From NCBI RefSeq assembly GCF_014697545.1, contig NZ_JACJSA010000010.1:186001-250000 (forward strand): 64,000 nt of DNA. Direction: 5' to 3'. Position 1 is the first letter of the stretch. Every line of letters begins with the position of its first letter. The position numbers and the translations under genes were made by a program. The notes below the pieces were generated by a model. It saw only the letters and a list, made by a program, of their open reading frames with translations, was not told the DNA's origin and ran no database searches. The DNA comes from Oscillatoria sp. FACHB-1407. GTDB lineage: Bacteria > Cyanobacteriota > Cyanobacteriia > Elainellales > Elainellaceae. This document shows, one piece after another, positions 44,921 through 60,794 of the stretch.

Positions 44921-46081
44921 TTATCGGGGTTGTTGCATGGGCAATTGCACAACGAAGATGCTGCCGTTACCGACTTCGGATTGAATGTTGATCTTGCCGT
45001 GGTGTGCTTTGACGATTTGGCTCGACAGGTGCAAGCCTAAACCACTGCCCGATCGCTTGTGGTTGCCATGCCGGAATGGCTCAAATAGGAAGGATCGATA
45101 TTCTGGGGCAACACCGGGACCAGAATCCTGGACTTCAATTTTGACCCATTGAGAGCCGTTGTTGGAAGCATTGCTAGTTGGGGCAGATGTCGTGCCAAGC
45201 CGGACTTCGACAAAGCCAGTATCGGTAAACTTAATGGCGTTGCCCACCAGATTCATAAACACGCGCCGCAACTCTAAGCGATCGCCCATGATCTCAACTT
45301 CTCCAACGGTATTGAGATTGCTGCGGAGTTCTAACCCCTTGTCGATCGCCAGAGGTGTCAGAGATTGCAGGACTTCCAGCAATAGCTCTTGCATATTGAT
45401 CGGGGTAAACGCCAGCGTCTTTTTCCCGGCTTCGTAGCAATAGACCTCCAGGAGCGCATTCACCATCTCCAAAAGGTTTTGGTTGCTGCGACTCATGATC
45501 ACCATGGCTTCGCTCAACTCAGGTGACAGTTCACCGAGAACCCCCTGCTGAATTAGAGACAACATGCGATCGGCAGCGACAAGGGGAGTCCGCAAATCGT
45601 GAGTCAGGCGGGAGACAAAGTCTTCACGTTGACGAGCAATCTGGTCGCGCTCATCGACGCTGTGTTTGAGTTTGAGGAGCGATCGCACCCGTGCCAGCAA
45701 TTCTTCAAATTCAATTGGTTTGCGAATAAAATCCTCGGCTCCGGTATCCAACCCCTGGGCAGCTCTAGGCTTGTCGTGCGCTGTGATTAACAGAATTGGA
45801 ATGAACGGTAGATTTTGATTTTCGCGAATCCGGCGAGTCACCTCAAATCCATCCATCCCAGGCATCATCACGTCTAAAAGCACCAGATCGGGAGGGGATG
45901 TTTCAACAAAGGCTAATGCATCTCTGCCGTTGTCTACAATATCAATTCGATAGCCCTCTTCTTTTAAGATTGCCTGAATTAAATATGAATTATCGGGAGC
46001 ATCATCCACGACTAGAATGCGATCAGGTCTTTTTGAAGGGTTTAACGGAAAAGATTGATTTGTAAAACTGAGCGTTTGCAT
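44921..46081 (-). CDS. receiver-histidine kinase hybrid (REC-HisKA-HATPase)
   Basis: A 386-residue protein (from ATG 46081) with an N-terminal receiver and a kinase core. The receiver shows acidic D26/D27 (VVDDAPDN), the phosphoacceptor D70 (VLLDVMMPGMDG) and the lysine in DFIRKPIEF. The kinase has H161 in LTHDLRTPLV, then MNLVGNAIKFT, VQDSGPGVAP and GSGLGLHLS. The receiver at the N-terminus probably controls the kinase after phosphotransfer from another kinase. There is no membrane segment. The frame runs open to a GTG at 46144; the start at 46081 agrees with the family but has a weak ribosome-binding site. Confidence 0.88.
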   Translation of the reverse strand: MQTLSFTNQSFPLNPSKRPDRILVVDDAPDNSYLIQAILKEEGYRIDIVDNGRDALAFVETSPPDLVLLDVMMPGMDGFEVTRRIRENQNLPFIPILLITAHDKPRAAQGLDTGAEDFIRKPIEFEELLARVRSLLKLKHSVDERDQIARQREDFVSRLTHDLRTPLVAADRMLSLIQQGVLGELSPELSEAMVIMSRSNQNLLEMVNALLEVYCYEAGKKTLAFTPINMQELLLEVLQSLTPLAIDKGLELRSNLNTVGEVEIMGDRLELRRVFMNLVGNAIKFTDTGFVEVRLGTTSAPTSNASNNGSQWVKIEVQDSGPGVAPEYRSFLFEPFRHGNHKRSGSGLGLHLSSQIVKAHHGKINIQSEVGNGSIFVVQLPMQQPR

Positions 46082-46204
46082 AAATAATGGGAGGTTTTTA
46101 AGGAGCTTTTTTGTAAGAGCAGGATTTGAAAGCGATTGTCTCACTCTAGAGACGTTTTATACCTCAACCAAATGAGAGATTTTCACGCAGGGCGCAACAG
46201 AGGA

Positions 46205-51178: not shown

Positions 51179-53086
51179 ATGACAACTTACTGGGCGATCG
51201 CGATTGGTATCAATCAGTATCGATGCTTCCAACCGTTAATGTATGCTCAACGGGACGCTCAGGCGTTGTGGAGTTACTGGGCAAGTGAAGGGCATTTTTT
51301 ATCAGAACACTGTTTGTTATTAACAGATGCTTCCGCTGCCATTGATCAACCCACCAGCGCACCCGATCGCGACACCATTGAAAACACCATTGAATCAGTT
51401 TGTCAGCGACTCCAACCGGATGATGTGTTGTGGTGTTTCTTTAGCGGTTATGGAGTGCGGTTTCAAGGGCGCGATTATTTAATGCCGATTGATGGCGATC
51501 CGCGTCAGGTTCCTGCAACGGGAATCCCGGTTGAGTCGTTGTTTGCGACGTTGCGGGCTGCCTCCAGCAAAAATATTGTACTGGCGTTGGATATCAACCG
51601 TAGCCAGGGGCTTTTAGATGGAGAGGGAGTCGGGCAGGAAACCATCGCTCTTGCCAACCAGTTTGGTATTCCGACTCTGCTCTCATGTCCGCCACACCAG
51701 TTTTCGCACGAGACACTGGCGTTACGTCAGGGCTTATTTACTGCCGCTCTGTTAGAGGGATTGCGCTTCCATGGCTGTGCCACAGTGGGTCAGTTAGGGC
51801 ATTACCTGAGCGATCGCCTCCCTGAATTGAGCGACCACCACTGCCGTCCTCGACAAGATGCCGTGGCGATCGTTCCCCCCGCACAACAACATTTGCTACT
51901 TGTGCCAGAGCAAGCCCTGGTGATGGCAGGGGTTCCCTATGCTCAAGTATCTACCCCTAATGCTCCCGCCCCCGTTTCGGCAGGTATTGGCATCCCCAGT
52001 GCTAGACCAGTTGAGCATAAAACCTACCCCAACGGCAGTCACCCCGACACCAGACCGCCCCTCATCAACACACCCCACATCAACGGGAATGGTGCTGCGG
52101 TGAATAGCAATTCGACAGCGACATCTCCGGTATCCAACGGGGCTACCGATCATGCAGCGGGTGACGAATCGGACAGTTTATTTTGGAAACGCTGGCGACC
52201 CTGGCTGATTGGAGCGATCGCTTTTCTCATTGTGGCGGTGTTGCTACAAAACCGCGATACCTTTAGCAACGAACCATTGCCCCAACCTTCCCCTACAACA
52301 GGAGCAGCCCCTGGTTCCAGCACAACCAGTCCAGCGACCACCAATCCGGCTACACCTAATCCAGTCACAACCAATCCAGTGCTGCCCACTGGTTCCAACC
52401 TGACCGCTCAAACCTTTAACCCACCGGATACCACCTCTGATGCGGCTGCACCTACAGAGGATGGTGACTCAACCCCGCTTGGAGAATCTCCTCAGCCCGA
52501 CCCAACCACCGGAGAGGTCGTTGCTCCCAGCCCTGAGCCACTGATTGATCCTCCTAATCCAACTACAACGGTCACTCCAGGTCAAAACAGTGCTTTGCAA
52601 CAGACGAATCAGGCGTTGTTGCTGCAAGCCCGTGCCTCTTTGAGCCGTCCCAGAGCCTTGAGTGCAACCAATCAAGCTTCAGACTTTAGCACGGCGATTC
52701 AAATTGCCAGTCGCATTAAAGCTGGGGAACCCTATTATGCCGAAGCACAGCAAGATATCGATCGCTGGAGCCAGATCATTCTAGAGCTAGCCCGTAGCAG
52801 AGCCAGTCAACCCAACCAGGGGTCTGCTCTGGTGGCGGCTCAAAATTATAGTGCTGCCATTCGTGCCGCAGGGCTGGTGCCTACTAATCGCACTCAACTG
52901 CGTGCCACAGCTGAGCAATACGCCACTCAGTGGAGTCAGATGATTTTGAATCTGGCAAATGCTCGCGCCAGAGAAGGACGGTTGGATGTCGCCATTCGCA
53001 CGGCTCAACTAGTGCCCCGCAATACGCCGAGCTATGCCGCTGCCGAACAGGCGATCGCGCAGTGGGAGTCGCAGTTGTATTACTAA
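51179..53086 (+). CDS. caspase-fold protein with degenerate catalytic dyad, membrane-anchored
   Basis: A 635-residue protein. Residues 1-245 have the caspase/p20 fold (WAIAIGINQY, LRAASSKNIVLALDIN). The catalytic His of the usual SGHG is Tyr (FFSGYG, Y91), and the Cys of the DxCxSG motif is Asn (DINRSQG, N140), so peptidase activity by the standard dyad is not possible. A Pro/Asn/Thr-rich linker, one membrane segment (WLIGAIAFLIVAVLL, about 342-356), a second low-complexity stretch and a helical repeat domain (about 470-635, three TPR/SEL1-like units with a W-x-x-x-I-L pattern) follow. The C-terminal part would lie outside the cytoplasm. It converges on a NACHT gene. Confidence 0.8.
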   Translation: MTTYWAIAIGINQYRCFQPLMYAQRDAQALWSYWASEGHFLSEHCLLLTDASAAIDQPTSAPDRDTIENTIESVCQRLQPDDVLWCFFSGYGVRFQGRDYLMPIDGDPRQVPATGIPVESLFATLRAASSKNIVLALDINRSQGLLDGEGVGQETIALANQFGIPTLLSCPPHQFSHETLALRQGLFTAALLEGLRFHGCATVGQLGHYLSDRLPELSDHHCRPRQDAVAIVPPAQQHLLLVPEQALVMAGVPYAQVSTPNAPAPVSAGIGIPSARPVEHKTYPNGSHPDTRPPLINTPHINGNGAAVNSNSTATSPVSNGATDHAAGDESDSLFWKRWRPWLIGAIAFLIVAVLLQNRDTFSNEPLPQPSPTTGAAPGSSTTSPATTNPATPNPVTTNPVLPTGSNLTAQTFNPPDTTSDAAAPTEDGDSTPLGESPQPDPTTGEVVAPSPEPLIDPPNPTTTVTPGQNSALQQTNQALLLQARASLSRPRALSATNQASDFSTAIQIASRIKAGEPYYAEAQQDIDRWSQIILELARSRASQPNQGSALVAAQNYSAAIRAAGLVPTNRTQLRATAEQYATQWSQMILNLANARAREGRLDVAIRTAQLVPRNTPSYAAAEQAIAQWESQLYY

Positions 53087-53233: not shown

Positions 53234-56200
53234 CTACTGGTCAATACCTGCCTCCTTTCTTAACTCCGCTAGCACCTCAGCCGTAAACGGATTTTGACCA
53301 GCTTGCAACGCCTCTAACCATGTCTGCTGCTGTTGTTTTCTCTTATCTGAGGAGTAGTTTCTATCAGACTCCACAACTGCCTGAAAATCCTCTGCGGCTC
53401 CCGCAATATTACCCGTTAAAGCTCTGGCTAATCCACGCGATTCTCGATAGCTCCACCAGTTGTCTAAACCCACTGCTTTGTCACCTGCAAACAACACAGT
53501 TGCTGCCTGACCGTGCAAACTACCAAACTGGCAAAGCTCATTCCAAATCCAGTCATCAATCTCCAATCCAGGGTCGATCGCTTGAGCCTCGTGATAAGCC
53601 TGCACTGCCTCTGTCACTCTGCCCTGTTTCACCCAATCCATGCCCTGGCTCAACAACACAGCCGCTTGAAATCGGGGGGATTGGGCTAAAGCCTCTGGTA
53701 CATTTAAGGCTTGATGTAGCCCTTGAGCACCTGCCCAGCGTGTAGCTCCATCCCAACGGATCTCACTCAAGTTAGTATCTTGAAGGTAGGCTCTGATGAG
53801 GTTGGCACTGCTGAGGTTGGCGCTGCTGAGGTCGGCACTGCTGAGGTCGGCGTTGACGAGGTCGGCGCTGAGGTTGGCGTTGCGGAGGTTGGCGTTTCTG
53901 AGGTAAGTGCTATTAAGGTTGGTACTGTTAAGGTTGGCGTCACTGAGGCTGGTGTTGAAGAGGTTGGCGCTGAAGAGGTCAGCGTTTCTGAGGTCAGCGT
54001 TTCTGAGGTTAGCGTTGCTGAGGTTAGTACCGCTGAGGATAGTATTACTGAGGTAGGCGCTGTTAAGGTCAGCATTACTGAGGTTGGTGCTGCTGAGGTA
54101 GGCGCTACTAAGGTCAGCATTACTGAGGTTGGCGTCACTGAGGTTGGCGCTGAAGAGGTCGGCGTTTCTTAGGTTGACGTTGCTAAGGTTAGTGTTGCGG
54201 AGAAGTGTTCTAACGGTCTTGTTAAAGATATCCAACTTCACACAATCACTGTAGTGCATGATCTGGAGCAATCGCTCTGGCTGATGCGACTCCGTGTCGG
54301 GTTGTCCACAGGGGTAAAACTGGATTTGCTCCTTCAAGGACGCTTGAGACTGAGCATGTCGATGGATCTCCAATAACAGAATCAAGGTGTTAAGACCTGT
54401 ATAAACATCTACCGAGCGTTGCCCAGCCTGGATCTGATACTTGTACAATTGTTTTGCTTTACGCTGTGGCAGGGTTTCTCCGGTGTCATCGATAAATTCG
54501 CCATCACACCAGCGCAGATAGAAGTCTTCTAGCCGTTCAAAAAGAACGACCCAATCAAAACTGTCCTTTTGCTTTAACAAGCCCATCAGATATTCCACAA
54601 TCTCCTGGGTGAGTGCTCCAAACCCAAACAGGTCATAAATCTCCCAGGGCAAATTTTGATTTGAAATCGTGTAATTTTTGCGGCGACTGCCACTTTTCTC
54701 AGTCCAGTTTTCCAGGCTTTCACACAGCCGTTCCGCACACAAAAATTCGCCAAAGCTCTTATGAAAAAACTCGACCTGGTTGTCACGTCCCTCGACTGAT
54801 TTCAAATAAAACGCAGCCAGAGCATTTTTAAGTGGGTTTTGCTCTGCTTGCTGCCGCGCACTGTCGAGCAGGGCTTTGGCTCCTTCATCTTCCTTGCGCT
54901 TGAGTCGCTCTTCAATCAAAGCAATGGCGGCAGACTCGCCCCCCGATTGCACGACACATAGCCCTGCCTCTGCCAAAATGCTCCGCAGATCCTCTGGGTC
55001 AAGCCCGGTAATTTTAGGGTTGAGATCGCGTCCATTGTCGCTGCGTTGTTTGGTCAATACCCAGTCCAGTGCCGCCTCATAAATTTGGATGCGGACTGCT
55101 ACAGGGTCATCCCCCTCAAATTGAGATTCCTGGAGTTTGCCATCGCGATGCAGTGCCGCTAACAGATACAGCAACAGCGGTTCAGTGGCTAGTGTTTTAA
55201 CTTGTTTTGGGCATCGCTGATTATTCAAAAATGCCTGAAACTGTTGTGCTTTCTCTGCATCCGCTAAAACAATACTCCACCGCTGTAGCCACCCCTGCTG
55301 AATCTGGTCGGCCATCGGTTGAATCTCGACCCGCTCTAGATTGGGGGGCATGAGCCGCTCAATGCCATACAGAGCCAGGGGTCTACCTGTGATCAATACG
55401 CGATGACTCCGTTCACTGTTTTGAGAGCAGCGAGTTTGAAAGAGCGATACCTGATCGAGAAATTGTTGAAGCCCAACGGTTGCTCCCCGCTCTAGCAACA
55501 GTTCATCAAAGCCATCCAGGAAGAACAAAAAGCGAGTATTGGGGTCAGTCAACCAGCCTGGATCTTTAGTAAAGTCAGTGCCAATGGCATCTGCCAGGGT
55601 TTTGTCAAAGTCCTGGGCAAAGTTTCGCACATCGCGCAAACGAATCAGAATCGGAATCCAGATGGGATACAGATCGCGGCGTACTTTGTCAGCAAACATG
55701 CGACAAAAGACGCTCTTGCCTCGTCCTGGCCCTCCCTGAATGAATAGGATCTGTCCTTTTTTGTCAGGGTTGAGCAATAGGGCTTCCGCCCATGTTTCAA
55801 TGTTTTCCGGCTCTGCCTCATCGTTGACTCGACCTTCGCCATCCACGGGTTTTATCTCTAGCGGCACATACAGATCGGCAAAACAAAAGTCTTCATCAAA
55901 AATCTTCTCCTGCGGCTTCTGGGCAATCCACTCTTTCAAATACCGATCAATGCTGATGTAGCTCTCCTGGTCTTGCAGCCAGCCTTCGCCATACACGGCG
56001 GCTAACCGCTTGACCTGGTCTTGCACCTCCGCCACGATCGTTTTCATGTAGCGGTGTGTACTTCGGGAGATCCGCTCCGTGACACAGGCGGCTTCTTGTG
56101 GAGGCAATCCTGCCTCCTGTAATCGGCTACTGAGTAAGCTGTTAAAGATCTTTGCCAGATCGGAGTCATGGAAACAGATCAGCGTTTCCCGTGCTTTTTG

Positions 56201-56689
56201 CTCCGTGAGTTCAACGGCTCTGCCCTCCAGTTCGAGCTTGTCCCCCAACTGTCGGATACGCTTTGCCAGAGCATCTGACGCCGGTTGGTCTGAGAGCCGT
56301 TGAGCAATGTCGGGATGCTCTGTCAGAAACACTTCCAGGCTTTTGAGGTAGGCACTCTGGCTGGCGATCGCCACTCCCACTTCTAGCGATGGCTCTTGAC
56401 GAGTCTGCTCATAGATATACTTCAGCAAACTGGTCGCCAGTGGCACAAAGGGCAATCCGGCTCCGGCCACCTGTGCCAGGGGCGAGTTCAACACATCCAA
56501 CAGTGAGGAGATATTGCTGCTGCTGATTAACCGTGCAACTTCTGGAGCAGAGCTATTTTCTTGCAGTGCTTTTGCCAGTTCCAGAATTGATTTGCTGGTG
56601 TCTACCGCACCGCTGACCGTGTCACTGAGGGAGAAGGTAATGTCTGTGTTGAGAGTCTGCCAGATATCGCGCCAGAGTTGCTTAACCAT
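53234..56689 (-). CDS. NACHT NTPase with pentapeptide repeats and TPR-like C-terminus
   Basis: A 1151-residue STAND-class protein. Residues about 1-270 are a helical N-terminal region without a recognised effector domain. The NACHT has Walker A GGPGRGKS (319-326), Walker B FLFFLDGFDEL (387-397) and a sensor region (VLITGRPLALYGI). A winged-helix/helical part follows, then about 28 pentapeptide repeats (A[DN]LS[SN] type, about 836-975) and a C-terminal TPR-like region (WVKQGRVTEAVQAYHEAQAI). STAND ATPases oligomerise on ligand binding; several bacterial NACHT proteins defend against phages. The sensor is presumably the pentapeptide/TPR part. No toxin, nuclease or TIR domain is seen, and the gene is a single unit. 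Confidence 0.85.
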   Translation of the reverse strand: MVKQLWRDIWQTLNTDITFSLSDTVSGAVDTSKSILELAKALQENSSAPEVARLISSSNISSLLDVLNSPLAQVAGAGLPFVPLATSLLKYIYEQTRQEPSLEVGVAIASQSAYLKSLEVFLTEHPDIAQRLSDQPASDALAKRIRQLGDKLELEGRAVELTEQKARETLICFHDSDLAKIFNSLLSSRLQEAGLPPQEAACVTERISRSTHRYMKTIVAEVQDQVKRLAAVYGEGWLQDQESYISIDRYLKEWIAQKPQEKIFDEDFCFADLYVPLEIKPVDGEGRVNDEAEPENIETWAEALLLNPDKKGQILFIQGGPGRGKSVFCRMFADKVRRDLYPIWIPILIRLRDVRNFAQDFDKTLADAIGTDFTKDPGWLTDPNTRFLFFLDGFDELLLERGATVGLQQFLDQVSLFQTRCSQNSERSHRVLITGRPLALYGIERLMPPNLERVEIQPMADQIQQGWLQRWSIVLADAEKAQQFQAFLNNQRCPKQVKTLATEPLLLYLLAALHRDGKLQESQFEGDDPVAVRIQIYEAALDWVLTKQRSDNGRDLNPKITGLDPEDLRSILAEAGLCVVQSGGESAAIALIEERLKRKEDEGAKALLDSARQQAEQNPLKNALAAFYLKSVEGRDNQVEFFHKSFGEFLCAERLCESLENWTEKSGSRRKNYTISNQNLPWEIYDLFGFGALTQEIVEYLMGLLKQKDSFDWVVLFERLEDFYLRWCDGEFIDDTGETLPQRKAKQLYKYQIQAGQRSVDVYTGLNTLILLLEIHRHAQSQASLKEQIQFYPCGQPDTESHQPERLLQIMHYSDCVKLDIFNKTVRTLLRNTNLSNVNLRNADLFSANLSDANLSNADLSSAYLSSTNLSNADLNSAYLSNTILSGTNLSNANLRNADLRNADLFSANLFNTSLSDANLNSTNLNSTYLRNANLRNANLSADLVNADLSSADLSSANLSSANLIRAYLQDTNLSEIRWDGATRWAGAQGLHQALNVPEALAQSPRFQAAVLLSQGMDWVKQGRVTEAVQAYHEAQAIDPGLEIDDWIWNELCQFGSLHGQAATVLFAGDKAVGLDNWWSYRESRGLARALTGNIAGAAEDFQAVVESDRNYSSDKRKQQQQTWLEALQAGQNPFTAEVLAELRKEAGIDQ

Positions 56690-56992: not shown

Positions 56993-58060
56993 TTACTGTT
57001 GTCGCAACCGGATTTCGGTCGGTTCACTGGTCACATTGTCCAGGCGAGCGGTGGCTCTGACGGTGTACTCCGTTCCAGGGACGGGAATACGCGGACGAGG
57101 CACCTGAACCCGGAACTCACCCTGGCTGTTGGCTCGAATGTCGCGATCGACCAAAGTGTCGCTGCCGATATTGCCCAAATCAACGCCTAACACTGAAACG
57201 CGTGCAACGACATTGACGCGCACACTGGCATTGGGGCGGGTTTGTCCCACTAAGGTAAATCCTTGATTAACGCGATCGCCATCTTGATGACTGGTGAATC
57301 GAGGTTTGAGATCGGTAACCGTTGAGCTACCTGTGTTGCCTGTGTTGCCTGTGTTTCCGGTGGAAGGAGTTTGCCCAGTAGTAGGAGTATCACCCCAGGC
57401 AAAGGGTTGAGAGGCCACCGCATAGGTGGTTTGATTTTGTCGCCGCAGACGACCGACAACCGCACCTTCAGAAACGCGCTCACCCGATCGCACTGAGATG
57501 TTGGCAACATAAACACCGCTCGATCGCTCCTGAGCCGCGACTTCTCGCACCGTTCGACCGTCTTGAATCAGTAACACTGATGCTTCCGATCCGGGTGTGC
57601 CGTTGATGGTGACGGTCAGCGTTGATCCAGCAGCTTGAGTCGTGCCAACGGCGTTGTGAGTCACTGAGGTAATCCGTACCAGTTGCGGCTGTTGCACGTT
57701 AAACGCCCAGTTTGCCGTGCGTTGCTCGCCTCGGACATTGCGATATTGCACCTGCACCTGTACCTGACCGACGGGTAGGGGTTGATCAGGGCGGTAGGTA
57801 AAAAAGCTGCGGGTAATCGTGCTGCGGCTAGTAACATCCTGCCCGTTAACAAAAATCCGCACCGAACTTGGATCAACGGCTGGATTGCTCTCAAATTCGC
57901 CAGCGATCGATGTATCAGGTGAAACATTTTGACTATTAACCGCAGGGGTTTGCTCGACCACCTGTTGCGCCAACACCGAATTTGATGAAGTGTTTGATAA
58001 AGCACCAGATGCAATAAGCAATCCTGTAGCGGTTAATCCCATCCAAAATTTTGTTTTCAT
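56993..58060 (-). CDS. hypothetical secreted protein with Ig-like repeats
   Basis: A 355-residue protein. The signal peptide ends near SNSVLAQQ (about residue 32). The mature protein is beta-rich, with three probable Ig-like/Big-type modules: about 40-125 (VDPSSVRIFVNGQDVT, VGQVQVQVQYRNV), about 130-215 and, after a Gly-Asn-Thr spacer (TGNTGNTGNTGS), about 255-355 (VGQTRPNASVRVNVVARV, YTVRATARLDN). It may be a cell-surface or envelope-spanning protein. The frame begins upstream at 58138; ATG 58060 puts the signal peptide at the N-terminus. No enzyme motif was found. Confidence 0.65.
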   Translation of the reverse strand: MKTKFWMGLTATGLLIASGALSNTSSNSVLAQQVVEQTPAVNSQNVSPDTSIAGEFESNPAVDPSSVRIFVNGQDVTSRSTITRSFFTYRPDQPLPVGQVQVQVQYRNVRGEQRTANWAFNVQQPQLVRITSVTHNAVGTTQAAGSTLTVTINGTPGSEASVLLIQDGRTVREVAAQERSSGVYVANISVRSGERVSEGAVVGRLRRQNQTTYAVASQPFAWGDTPTTGQTPSTGNTGNTGNTGSSTVTDLKPRFTSHQDGDRVNQGFTLVGQTRPNASVRVNVVARVSVLGVDLGNIGSDTLVDRDIRANSQGEFRVQVPRPRIPVPGTEYTVRATARLDNVTSEPTEIRLRQQ

Positions 58061-58685
58061 AGTAAGCCAGATTTTAAGCATTCCCGCTCTTTTATGAAGA
58101 AACTTTGGAGGATCAAGTTCCAGTCTTTTAAATTTCACATCGCCTCTAAAAGGTTAAGTATAAATACCTTCTTATTTACTTAAATACATATCATTATTGA
58201 CTTCTATAAAGCTTCTTTAGGAATTAATGCACTCCTGGGTTATTCTTATGTTGATAAATGATTTCTCGAAAAAGAAATGTAGTATTTCTATTCATACTTG
58301 ATTTCTTTTACGAAAAAATTTTCAGGGTACGCATCAAGACTCATTAGAACTAGGCTTTTGCCAATATTTAGACGTTTCTCAAACTTTTTTAGAGTAACTT
58401 TTCAGGGTTTAAATGTAATTCAAAATTCTGCTCACTTAGAAAACAAAGAGTTGCAAAACTCATACCAGGCTTCAAAGAGTTCAGAGTTTTAACGAGTTAC
58501 ATTTTTTAATGTTTCTACCTATACTTCAAGGCAATTAAGAGGGTTTCGTTTGTTTCAGAACGTTAAGTTTTATGATTAGCTCCTGAAACAAATAGTGGAA
58601 ATCCTTGAATAAGAGTTAAACGCCAAAAAGCGATAGGGGATCTACTGAAATTTATCTCAAAACTCCTTTTAAACGCCTTCTGGTC
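58061..58685. other. AT-rich divergent spacer upstream of the bilin-sensor kinase
   Basis: A 625-bp AT-rich stretch between two divergent genes. A 64-codon plus-strand frame (58298-58492) lacks a ribosome-binding site and protein-like composition. No repeat family of the window is present. It should carry the promoters of both genes. Confidence 0.45.
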
Positions 58686-60794
58686 ATGGATTCAAAACAG
58701 TTAGAACAATTGCGGCAGTGTTGTCGCGATCGGGCAGCGTTTGAGCAGATGCAACAGATCCTCTCAGCCGAACTAGAGCAAGTCCAGTTTGAGCATCAAC
58801 GCGCTTTGTTTCGAGTCATTGCCAAGATTCGCGAGTCTCTAGATTTAGAAACTATCTTTAAAACAACGGTGACCGAGCTACGGCAACTGCTAAATGCCGA
58901 CCGAGTTGCTGTGTTTAAGTTTTATCGCAACTCTGGCTACAACGATGGTACGTTTGTGTCGGAGGATGTGTTGCCCCGGTTTCCGTCTACCTTGTCAGAA
59001 CATGTGCATGATCACTGCTTTGGGCAGCAGTATGCCATTCATTATTTGGGGGGACGGATTCAAGCGATCGCCGATATTCAGAATGCAGGTTTGCAACCTT
59101 GCCATGTGGATGTGTTGGCAAAGTTTCAGGTGCGTGCCAATCTGATTGTGCCGTTGTTGCAGAGCGATCGCCTCTGGGGGTTGCTGTGCGTGCATCAGTG
59201 CTCAGGTCCTCGACTCTGGAAAACGACTGAAATTGAATTCACGAAACAAATTGCCGATCACCTGGGTGTAGCGTTGCAACAGGCAAAGTTGGTTGAGCAG
59301 ATCACGACCCAAGCCAACCAGCAAAAGGCGTTGTTGTCAGTGGTTAGCAAAATTCGCGAATCGCTGGATCTGGAAACCATCTTTAAGTCAACGGCACGAG
59401 AGGTGCGGCGTCTGCTGGATGCTGATCGCGTTGGTGTGTTTTGGTTTGATCCCGATTCGGGCTATGACGCAGGTCAGTTTGTATCAGAGGATGTCTTGTC
59501 GGGTTTTGATTCGGTGTTAGCCGCCAAAGTCGAGGATCACTGCTTTGGTGAAAACTATTCCCTGCACTATCGCCATGGGCGCATTCAGGCGATCGATGAC
59601 GTCCATAACTCTAGCTTGAAGGCTTGCCATGTTGAGGTTTTACGGCGATTTCAGGTGCGTGCCAATCTAGTAGTGCCCTTGCTTCAGGGCGATATGCTCT
59701 GGGGTTTGCTGTGTATTCATCAGTGCGCTCACCCCCGACGCTGGCAGGCACAGGAGATCGAGTTTGTCATGCAGATTGCCAATCACCTGGGCATTGCGTT
59801 GCAACAGGCAGAACTATTGGCACAGACCCGCACCCAATCCGCCGAACTGGCGCAGACTCTATCAGAGCTACAAGCAGCTCAAACTCGGCTCATCCATCAG
59901 GAGAAGATGTCGAGTCTGGGGCAGTTGGTGGCAGGAGTTGCCCACGAGATCAACAATCCCGTGAACTTTATCTATGGCAATTTGAACTACGCCAATCAAT
60001 ATGCCAAGGATCTGTTAGGGTTGCTGATGCTGTATCAACAACACTATCCCAACCCACACGGAGAACTGGGCGATCGCGCAGAGCAAATCGACCTGGAATT
60101 CATCATGGAAGACTTTCCGCGGATGTTGAACTCCATGCAGATTGGAGCCGATCGCATTCGCCAGATTGTGCTGTCATTGCGAACCTTTTCGCGGCTCGAC
60201 GAAGCCGATATGAAATTTGTTGATATTCACGACGGGCTGGACAGCACGCTGATGATCTTGCAGCATCGGCTCAACCCCAAAACAAGCCAGATCAGTATTG
60301 AAGTCATCAAAGACTATGGAAATCTGCCCCTAATTGAGTGCTATCCCAGTCAGCTCAATCAGGTGTTTATGAATATTCTGACGAATGCGATCGACGCTCT
60401 GACAAGGGATGAGGAGTCTGAGAAGCACTCCCTAAGCCCAAAACCGATCCACAAAGCCAAGCAGATTACCATTCGGACAGAACTGCTGACCGATGCTCAG
60501 GGTACAAACTCTCGTGCAATCATCCGGATCGCAGACAATGGTTCTGGTGTGCCTGAAGCCATTCAATCGCAGCTATTCAATCCCTTCTTTACAACAAAAC
60601 CTATCGGCAAAGGAACGGGCTTGGGACTGTCGATCAGCCATCAGATCGTGGTTGAACGGCACGGCGGTCTGTTGAAGTACGTTTCACAACCGGGTCAGGG
60701 AACTGAATTTTGGATTGAGATTCCAACACATCAGGTATCTCATCAGATCAGCTCTGATCAAGCTCTAAACTTCTCGGCGCAGTTGCCGCTCTAA
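58686..60794 (+). CDS. histidine kinase with two DXCF-type cyanobacteriochrome GAF domains
   Basis: A 702-residue soluble kinase. Two tandem GAF domains (about 45-200 and 220-375) are closely similar. Each has the DXCF motif (DHCF with C111; DHCF with C286) and a canonical bilin Cys followed by His (PCH with C139; ACH with C314), both 28 residues apart as in DXCF cyanobacteriochromes such as TePixJ. RVRANL-type and LLCVHQC motifs follow. A coiled coil leads to the kinase with H420 in AGVAHEINNPVNF, then MNILTNAIDAL, IADNGSGVP and GTGLGLSISHQI. It probably senses blue/green-range light through two bilins and relays it to an unknown regulator. No membrane segment; no adjacent response regulator. 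Confidence 0.88.
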   Translation: MDSKQLEQLRQCCRDRAAFEQMQQILSAELEQVQFEHQRALFRVIAKIRESLDLETIFKTTVTELRQLLNADRVAVFKFYRNSGYNDGTFVSEDVLPRFPSTLSEHVHDHCFGQQYAIHYLGGRIQAIADIQNAGLQPCHVDVLAKFQVRANLIVPLLQSDRLWGLLCVHQCSGPRLWKTTEIEFTKQIADHLGVALQQAKLVEQITTQANQQKALLSVVSKIRESLDLETIFKSTAREVRRLLDADRVGVFWFDPDSGYDAGQFVSEDVLSGFDSVLAAKVEDHCFGENYSLHYRHGRIQAIDDVHNSSLKACHVEVLRRFQVRANLVVPLLQGDMLWGLLCIHQCAHPRRWQAQEIEFVMQIANHLGIALQQAELLAQTRTQSAELAQTLSELQAAQTRLIHQEKMSSLGQLVAGVAHEINNPVNFIYGNLNYANQYAKDLLGLLMLYQQHYPNPHGELGDRAEQIDLEFIMEDFPRMLNSMQIGADRIRQIVLSLRTFSRLDEADMKFVDIHDGLDSTLMILQHRLNPKTSQISIEVIKDYGNLPLIECYPSQLNQVFMNILTNAIDALTRDEESEKHSLSPKPIHKAKQITIRTELLTDAQGTNSRAIIRIADNGSGVPEAIQSQLFNPFFTTKPIGKGTGLGLSISHQIVVERHGGLLKYVSQPGQGTEFWIEIPTHQVSHQISSDQALNFSAQLPL

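Follow-up and report, generated by a model that had tools for sequence, protein, structure and literature searches.

To our knowledge, there is no settled explanation for the presence of several bilin sensors in series in many cyanobacterial kinases. The dual-input kinase of PDB entry 6oap reportedly follows OR logic; the titles of entries 6oap, 6oaq and 6ob8 name a green-absorbing and a BeF3-bound state. Linker lengths that depend on heptads and regularly spaced cyanobacteriochrome (CBCR) GAF domains are described in sections of a review (PMC6798134), which also set out the principle of coupling through one helical spine in tandem sensor kinases. Typical DXCF GAFs are given as blue/green in parts of PMC11284453, and sections of PMC5240096 link a Phe in β2 and a Phe in helix α4 to red/green and Teal-DXCF photocycles.

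The kinase and its two GAF domains

The window is a stretch of 64,000 nucleotides from Oscillatoria sp. FACHB-1407, whose genome comprises 8.1 Mb in 66 contigs. We read the product of one of its genes, with a probability of about 0.78, as a soluble cyanobacteriochrome histidine kinase with two DXCF sensors of the same type in series, giving two inputs of the same colour. Its features, and the neighbouring divergent gene, are as follows.

58686–60794, + strand: putative histidine kinase with tandem DXCF cyanobacteriochrome GAFs, 702 aa, an uninterrupted frame from ATG to stop
58698–58766, + strand: N-terminal leader of the LEQLRxCCRDxAAFE type, recognized by eye
58767–59300, + strand: GAF1, residues 28–205
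58953–58955, + strand: β2 Phe F90 of GAF1 at a trapped-twist position, from the alignment to NpR6012g4 (6bhn)
59010–59021, + strand: DHCF of GAF1 (D109–F112) with the second Cys, C111
59100–59105, + strand: canonical Cys-His of GAF1, C139–H140
59124–59126, + strand: helix α4 Phe F147 of GAF1 at a trapped-twist position, from the alignment to NpR6012g4
59187–59189, + strand: C168 of GAF1, a lineage-typical Cys at the ring-D position (A350 of AnPixJg2), placed by arithmetic
59217–59429, + strand: linker from W178 (GAF1) to R248 (GAF2), a distance of 70 residues; the model shows an unbroken helix through its middle
59298–59831, + strand: GAF2, residues 205–382
59478–59480, + strand: β2 Phe F265 of GAF2
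59535–59546, + strand: DHCF of GAF2 (D284–F287) with the second Cys, C286
59625–59630, + strand: canonical Cys-His of GAF2, C314–H315
59649–59651, + strand: helix α4 Phe F322 of GAF2
59712–59714, + strand: C343 of GAF2, counterpart of the lineage-typical C168
59916–59987, + strand: HisKA match, residues 411–434, with phospho-acceptor His H420 (59943–59945)
60345–60728, + strand: HATPase_c, residues 554–681, with N, G1, F and G2 boxes
56993–58138, − strand: divergent neighbour gene with no Pfam match, which recurs beside one tandem and one single-GAF homologue

Pfam identifies GAF (7.3e-49, in two stretches), HATPase_c (1.2e-23) and a fragment of HisKA (8e-7) in the 702-residue product. HisKA is matched over 24 residues only; the H, N, G1, F and G2 boxes are all found. 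The sequence-only reading had placed DHCF and Cys-His motifs at C111/C139 and C286/C314, with the two bilin cysteines of each GAF 28 residues apart, and a check of the residue index agrees on both counts. Its description of the domains as near-identical is wrong: GAF1 and GAF2 share 109 of 172 aligned residues in a gap-free alignment, nucleotide identity is 67% over the 165-codon core and 67% of the synonymous sites differ (pS 0.67).

In a sequence search of the PDB both GAFs match cyanobacteriochromes, and CBCR GAFs lead the matches. The best is the dual-sensor kinase 6oap (8e-45 for GAF1, 4.1e-44 for GAF2), and both domains also match TePixJ (3vv4) and NpR6012g4 (6bhn). Alignment of GAF2 with TePixJ places DHCF on DPCF and Cys-His on Cys-His and is ungapped across the stretch; GAF1 is linked through its own gap-free alignment with GAF2. 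The AlphaFold model of GAF2 (eight sequences, apo) has a mean pLDDT of 73, with values below 50 for residues 78–99, which include the DHCF loop. Foldseek with this model returns structures that are also found by sequence (the CBCR set), 6oap being on top. A second look with VIA-align gives many phytochromes at Z ∼16–18, as high as the cyanobacteriochromes, so the fold alone cannot separate the subfamilies. At the level of sequence, assignment to the DXCF cyanobacteriochrome GAFs follows from the relation to CBCR GAFs, the Cys of the Asp-X-Cys-Phe motif, the canonical Cys-His and a host capable of phycocyanobilin synthesis. The extended red/green (XRG) type was considered and rejected: the WXDXXL motif is broken by V107 and V282 in place of Trp, and the DXCF Cys is present.

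Two heme oxygenase genes were identified in the host genome, together with a single gene for a ferredoxin-dependent bilin reductase, which scores above the cutoff as PcyA (phycocyanobilin:ferredoxin oxidoreductase); no second bilin reductase was found at E ≤ 0.001. With two heme oxygenases and PcyA the host can make phycocyanobilin, and since PcyA is the single bilin reductase found, phycocyanobilin is the expected precursor. Sequence, conservation and the bilin genes of the host give good support to the earlier proposal of a bilin photoreceptor kinase, as a prediction, and point to two usable dual-Cys pockets.

Homologues, family history and gene neighbourhood

At E ≤ 1e-120, matches occur in 32 of the family's 36 genomes, most of them to single-GAF or other architectures; six genomes, the window's included, have the same tandem (L001, L031–L035). 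The order-level search covers the same 36 genomes. The class search (388 genomes) was scored with two and then with eight candidates per genome; with two it adds one more tandem, L079, and adjacent DHCF pairs occur in at least seven of the 388 genomes. Six more genomes (G347, G023, G016, G312, G009 and G107) have two DHCF domains further apart in one ORF. A scan of genome contigs gave three relatives with 43–47% identity, and plasmid records gave 19 matches, all below 60% identity.

The seven tandem proteins contribute 14 domains, in which 54 of 183 positions are invariant. Conserved in all 14 (GAF1 numbering) are D109, H110, C111, F112, C139, H140, F90, F147, C168, H170 and C172, and because all these residues are kept the motif pattern is not a product of chance. 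Pairwise dN/dS among L034, L035 and L079, which are each other's closest homologues, is 0.07–0.18 for GAF1 and 0.05–0.10 for GAF2; both GAFs are under purifying selection in these three. In the wider lineage several GAFs are without one or both of the DXCF and canonical cysteines, which means that not every member uses the pocket.

The window gene gives no support for a recent duplication or for gene conversion, with a pS of 0.67 and a longest identical run of ordinary length (permutation p 0.16). L031 differs less in the GAF core (pS 0.60) than in the flanks (pS 0.81), the longest identical run has p 0.17, and its own GAF1 and GAF2 are sisters in the tree (95/94). The corresponding run has p 0.024 in L033 and 0.042 in L079, values uncorrected for seven tests; conversion may have acted in some homologues. 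Within the L034/L035/L079 clade the GAF1s and the GAF2s each group separately with support.

A survey of the host's own genome yielded 29 ORFs with CBCR-like GAFs and 43 domain hits, the ORFs coming from 38 of 41 places. Seven ORFs have two or more near-full CBCR-like GAFs. The window ORF is the only one of them with two dual-Cys GAFs; the other six have at most one. The claim that in the majority of multi-GAF kinases one or both cysteines are gone is compatible with this count (six of seven), which is one of ORFs that are not all established as kinases. The homologue set was assembled by similarity to the window protein; on our reading, two dual-Cys GAFs occur in 13 of its 32 multi-GAF proteins: the tandem seven, L060, L080–L083 (L082 with Glu for the motif Asp) and L093. 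Two dual-Cys GAFs in one protein are thus uncommon but not unique. L080 (G059), L081 (G073) and L093 (G086) carry a DECF-CH and then a DHCF-CH GAF in series with a linker of 84 residues, and the region N-terminal of this pair looks phytochrome-like by its motif.

Single-GAF relatives share the kinase with the tandem form, and the N-terminal leader is seen by eye in six of seven tandem kinases and eight of ten printed single-GAF relatives. In a kinase tree of 56 rows the two forms are mixed, with four changes, at least two of them forced by starred branches. Repeated gain of a second GAF is nevertheless not established, since a single tandem clade remains acceptable in an AU test of 21 kinases (p 0.121). 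The single-GAF L039 and L040, with no H-box match, were left out. The number of GAFs has probably changed within one orthologous family.

The neighbour at 56993–58138 encodes 381 residues with a signal-peptide-like start. Homologues, likewise divergent, stand beside a tandem kinase (L067) and a single-GAF kinase (L078), and among 13 homologous loci compared, at some of which the contig ends near the gene, it is the only gene that recurs in place (2 of 13); no operon partner is claimed. In ten neighbouring ORFs scanned the only receiver domain lies in a separate kinase, a receiver-HisKA-HATPase protein with the response regulator domain first (44921–46144, − strand), ∼12.5 kb from the CBCR kinase. 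Directly downstream of the latter is a phosphonate-type periplasmic binding protein (PF12974; 61126–62100, + strand). Further off, a large NACHT protein (53234–56689, − strand) combines an NNH3 helical domain at the N terminus with pentapeptide repeats and, at the C terminus, a weak TPR match, and its gene is convergent with that of a 635-residue caspase-domain (Peptidase_C14) protein (51179–53086, + strand). These two genes could form a stress, cell-death or defence cluster.

Predicted photocycle and chromophore

The β2 Phe of NpR6012g4 aligns to F90 and F265, and its helix α4 Phe to F147 and F322. We take these trapped-twist residues to be F634 and F695 of NpR6012g4, which fits by counting. 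Both window GAFs accordingly carry the pair of Phe that serves as the Teal-DXCF criterion. A survey of GAFs gathered by similarity to the window protein gave 172 hits, of which 55 with more than 20 gap columns were dropped and 117 kept. The D/E/N-X-C-F motif is present in 58 of these, 47 with a three-residue loop insertion and 11 without. Insertion-bearing motif GAFs have the β2 Phe in 44 of 47 cases and the α4 Phe in all 47, whereas the insertion-free ones have them in none and in six of 11 respectively. The photocycle predicted from sequence for both GAFs is blue/teal rather than blue/green, because both trapped-twist Phe are present where TePixJ has Val and Leu. Of the colours proposed earlier, the violet/blue state is kept in the prediction; the loosely worded green/teal photoproduct is narrowed, the two Phe favouring teal. 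A green, TePixJ-like photoproduct is possible within the same photoreceptor reading, although we would not expect it: the DXCF and Cys-His motifs do resemble those of TePixJ, and blue/green is typical of DXCF GAFs in the relevant parts of PMC11284453, but TePixJ does not have the two Phe that the consulted sections of PMC5240096 tie to Teal-DXCF.

The pocket positions checked are identical in GAF1 and GAF2. Across all tandem domains five columns (31, 32, 206, 212 and 213) strictly separate GAF1 from GAF2, all in the end helices, and six more (33, 174, 177, 181, 208 and 211) nearly do so. With all pocket positions alike and the strict separating columns in the end helices, no difference in colour between the two domains is predicted.

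The bilin bound is expected to be phycocyanobilin, possibly isomerized to phycoviolobilin, and a third cysteine may bear on this. C168 is present in 47 of 47 insertion-bearing DXCF-type domains vs one of 11 other DXCF GAFs. By a count on the alignment its position is that of A350 in AnPixJg2 and I1076 in MCC3606390g2. Sections of PMC11284453 name I1076 as one of three residues that support phycoviolobilin formation and give little effect for I1076A alone (99.4% PVB). TePixJ and another phycoviolobilin-forming GAF have Ile at this ring-D position and the window GAFs have Cys; with this replacement the chromophore, and hence the colour, could differ. The counts are suggestive of a role of C168 in bilin chemistry. 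The cysteine may also be structural, since L055, L092 and L097, whose GAFs are without the canonical and DXCF cysteines in the alignment, still keep it; these are DHCF-lineage GAFs that retain the cysteines of LLC[IV]HQC or LMCIHQC. In the literature covered, a search found no paper on a cyanobacteriochrome with DHCF or with a third Cys. A bolder proposal sets the DHCF lineage apart as its own type of DXCF sensor: C168/C343 would be a third pocket thiol, placed at the ring-D position that elsewhere helps to determine whether phycoviolobilin forms. Two copies held in heptad register on one helix would respond cooperatively to one colour, their light response being steeper than that of the single-GAF sisters; we regard this combination as speculative and unlikely.

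Proposed coupling of the GAFs and comparison with known systems

The spacing from GAF to GAF is 175 residues in all seven tandem proteins, and also in L085, though its first GAF is without both cysteines. From the canonical Cys of the last GAF to the phospho-acceptor His there are 106 residues in 42 of the 47 related kinases where the pattern found both; the other five distances are 107, 112 (three) and 113. Between fixed anchors, 35 GAF pairs were caught, with linkers of 70 (seven pairs), 77 (15), 84 (four) and 91 residues (one) making up 27 of the 35, pairs that share ancestry and are not 27 independent cases. The seven pairs of the 70-residue class all belong to the tandem family, and this class is one heptad shorter than the commonest class (77). 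Eight pairs do not fit the heptad series: 57 (an anchor mis-hit), 66, 81, 81, 85, 92, 92 and 92. A model of the tandem (mean pLDDT 66, pTM 0.47) has one helix across the GAF junction (model residues 153–198). The heptad linker illustrates well a principle that is already known, and its fixed, heptad-spaced length favours coupling of both GAFs through one helical spine.

From motifs, conservation, fold family, host bilin genes, spacing and kinase boxes, all observed or computed, we infer a mechanism that extends to bilin attachment, colours, dimer, twist, coupling and kinase output. Each GAF would attach phycocyanobilin (possibly isomerized to phycoviolobilin) via its canonical Cys, C139 or C314, and the DXCF Cys (C111, C286) would reversibly form a second bond, to C10 of the bilin, upon 15Z/15E switching. 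The second bond would give a violet/blue dark state, and the trapped-twist Phe probably a teal photoproduct. In a presumed parallel dimer, a single long signalling helix would carry both GAFs. As they are 175 residues apart with a fixed distance to the phospho-acceptor His, both would twist the same spine and so set autophosphorylation at H420.

A different division of labour is conceivable, with one GAF binding bilin or signalling and the other kept as a structural spacer whose motif persists by descent. The 106-residue link to the kinase involves GAF2 alone, there are single-GAF relatives that share leader and kinase, and some members of the lineage have lost cysteines; yet all 14 tandem domains keep every pocket residue checked despite positional differences of up to 42%, and dN/dS is low in both GAFs, which makes a spacer improbable. 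The limited identity between the domains (109 of 172 residues) and the supported grouping of GAF1 and GAF2 in the L034/L035/L079 clade would suit functionally different inputs instead, differing in colour, bilin or dark reversion and giving a two-channel or logic-gate kinase, and dual-input tandem sensor kinases are known (6oap, by title). We consider such a kinase unlikely, though a serious candidate, as the checked pocket positions are the same in both GAFs and the strict separating columns are confined to the end helices.

Each GAF has four invariant cysteines (C111, C139, C168 and C172 in GAF1), two of which, C168 and C172, persist in relatives without the bilin cysteines, a pattern that thiol or redox sensors binding no bilin could also produce. 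This we find hardly credible: DXCF and Cys-His of GAF2 fall exactly on the bilin-cysteine positions of TePixJ, the best PDB sequence matches are bilin-binding GAFs and the host makes the bilin. The reading as a two-input, same-colour kinase places sensors of the same type, with conserved pockets and fixed spacing, beside one-sensor sister kinases whose leader and kinase are the same. With this pairing, the contribution of a second same-colour sensor, be it gain, threshold or redundancy, could be measured in a natural system, and the extra ring-D Cys gives the lineage a specific pocket feature open to testing.

DpxA of Fremyella, presumably of the DXCF class, is likened to the window kinase by description. 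It is a yellow/teal cyanobacteriochrome for which parts of PMC4937213 give a teal state and measured kinase activity. The GAF of TePixJ (3vv4, 4glq; blue/green DXCF) also has DXCF and Cys-His at a spacing of 28 residues and is 39–40% identical to the window GAF2 model in the structural match. However, TePixJ is a chemotaxis receptor, has Val and Leu at the two Phe positions and Ile at that of C168, and its β1–β2 stretch is three residues shorter than in GAF2. NpR6012g4 (6bhn, red/green) shares both trapped-twist Phe at equivalent positions, but is of the WXDXXL type and without the DXCF Cys. The kinase of 6oap, 6oaq and 6ob8 is by title a tandem-input sensor kinase like the window protein; in contrast, a single domain of it matches the window GAFs, and its CBCR GAF has D-Q-Y-F with no DXCF Cys. 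The single-GAF DHCF kinases (L036, L038, L041, L043, L048, L052 and L054) have the leader, the GAF type and the 106-residue link to the His of the window kinase, and differ in having one GAF where it has two.
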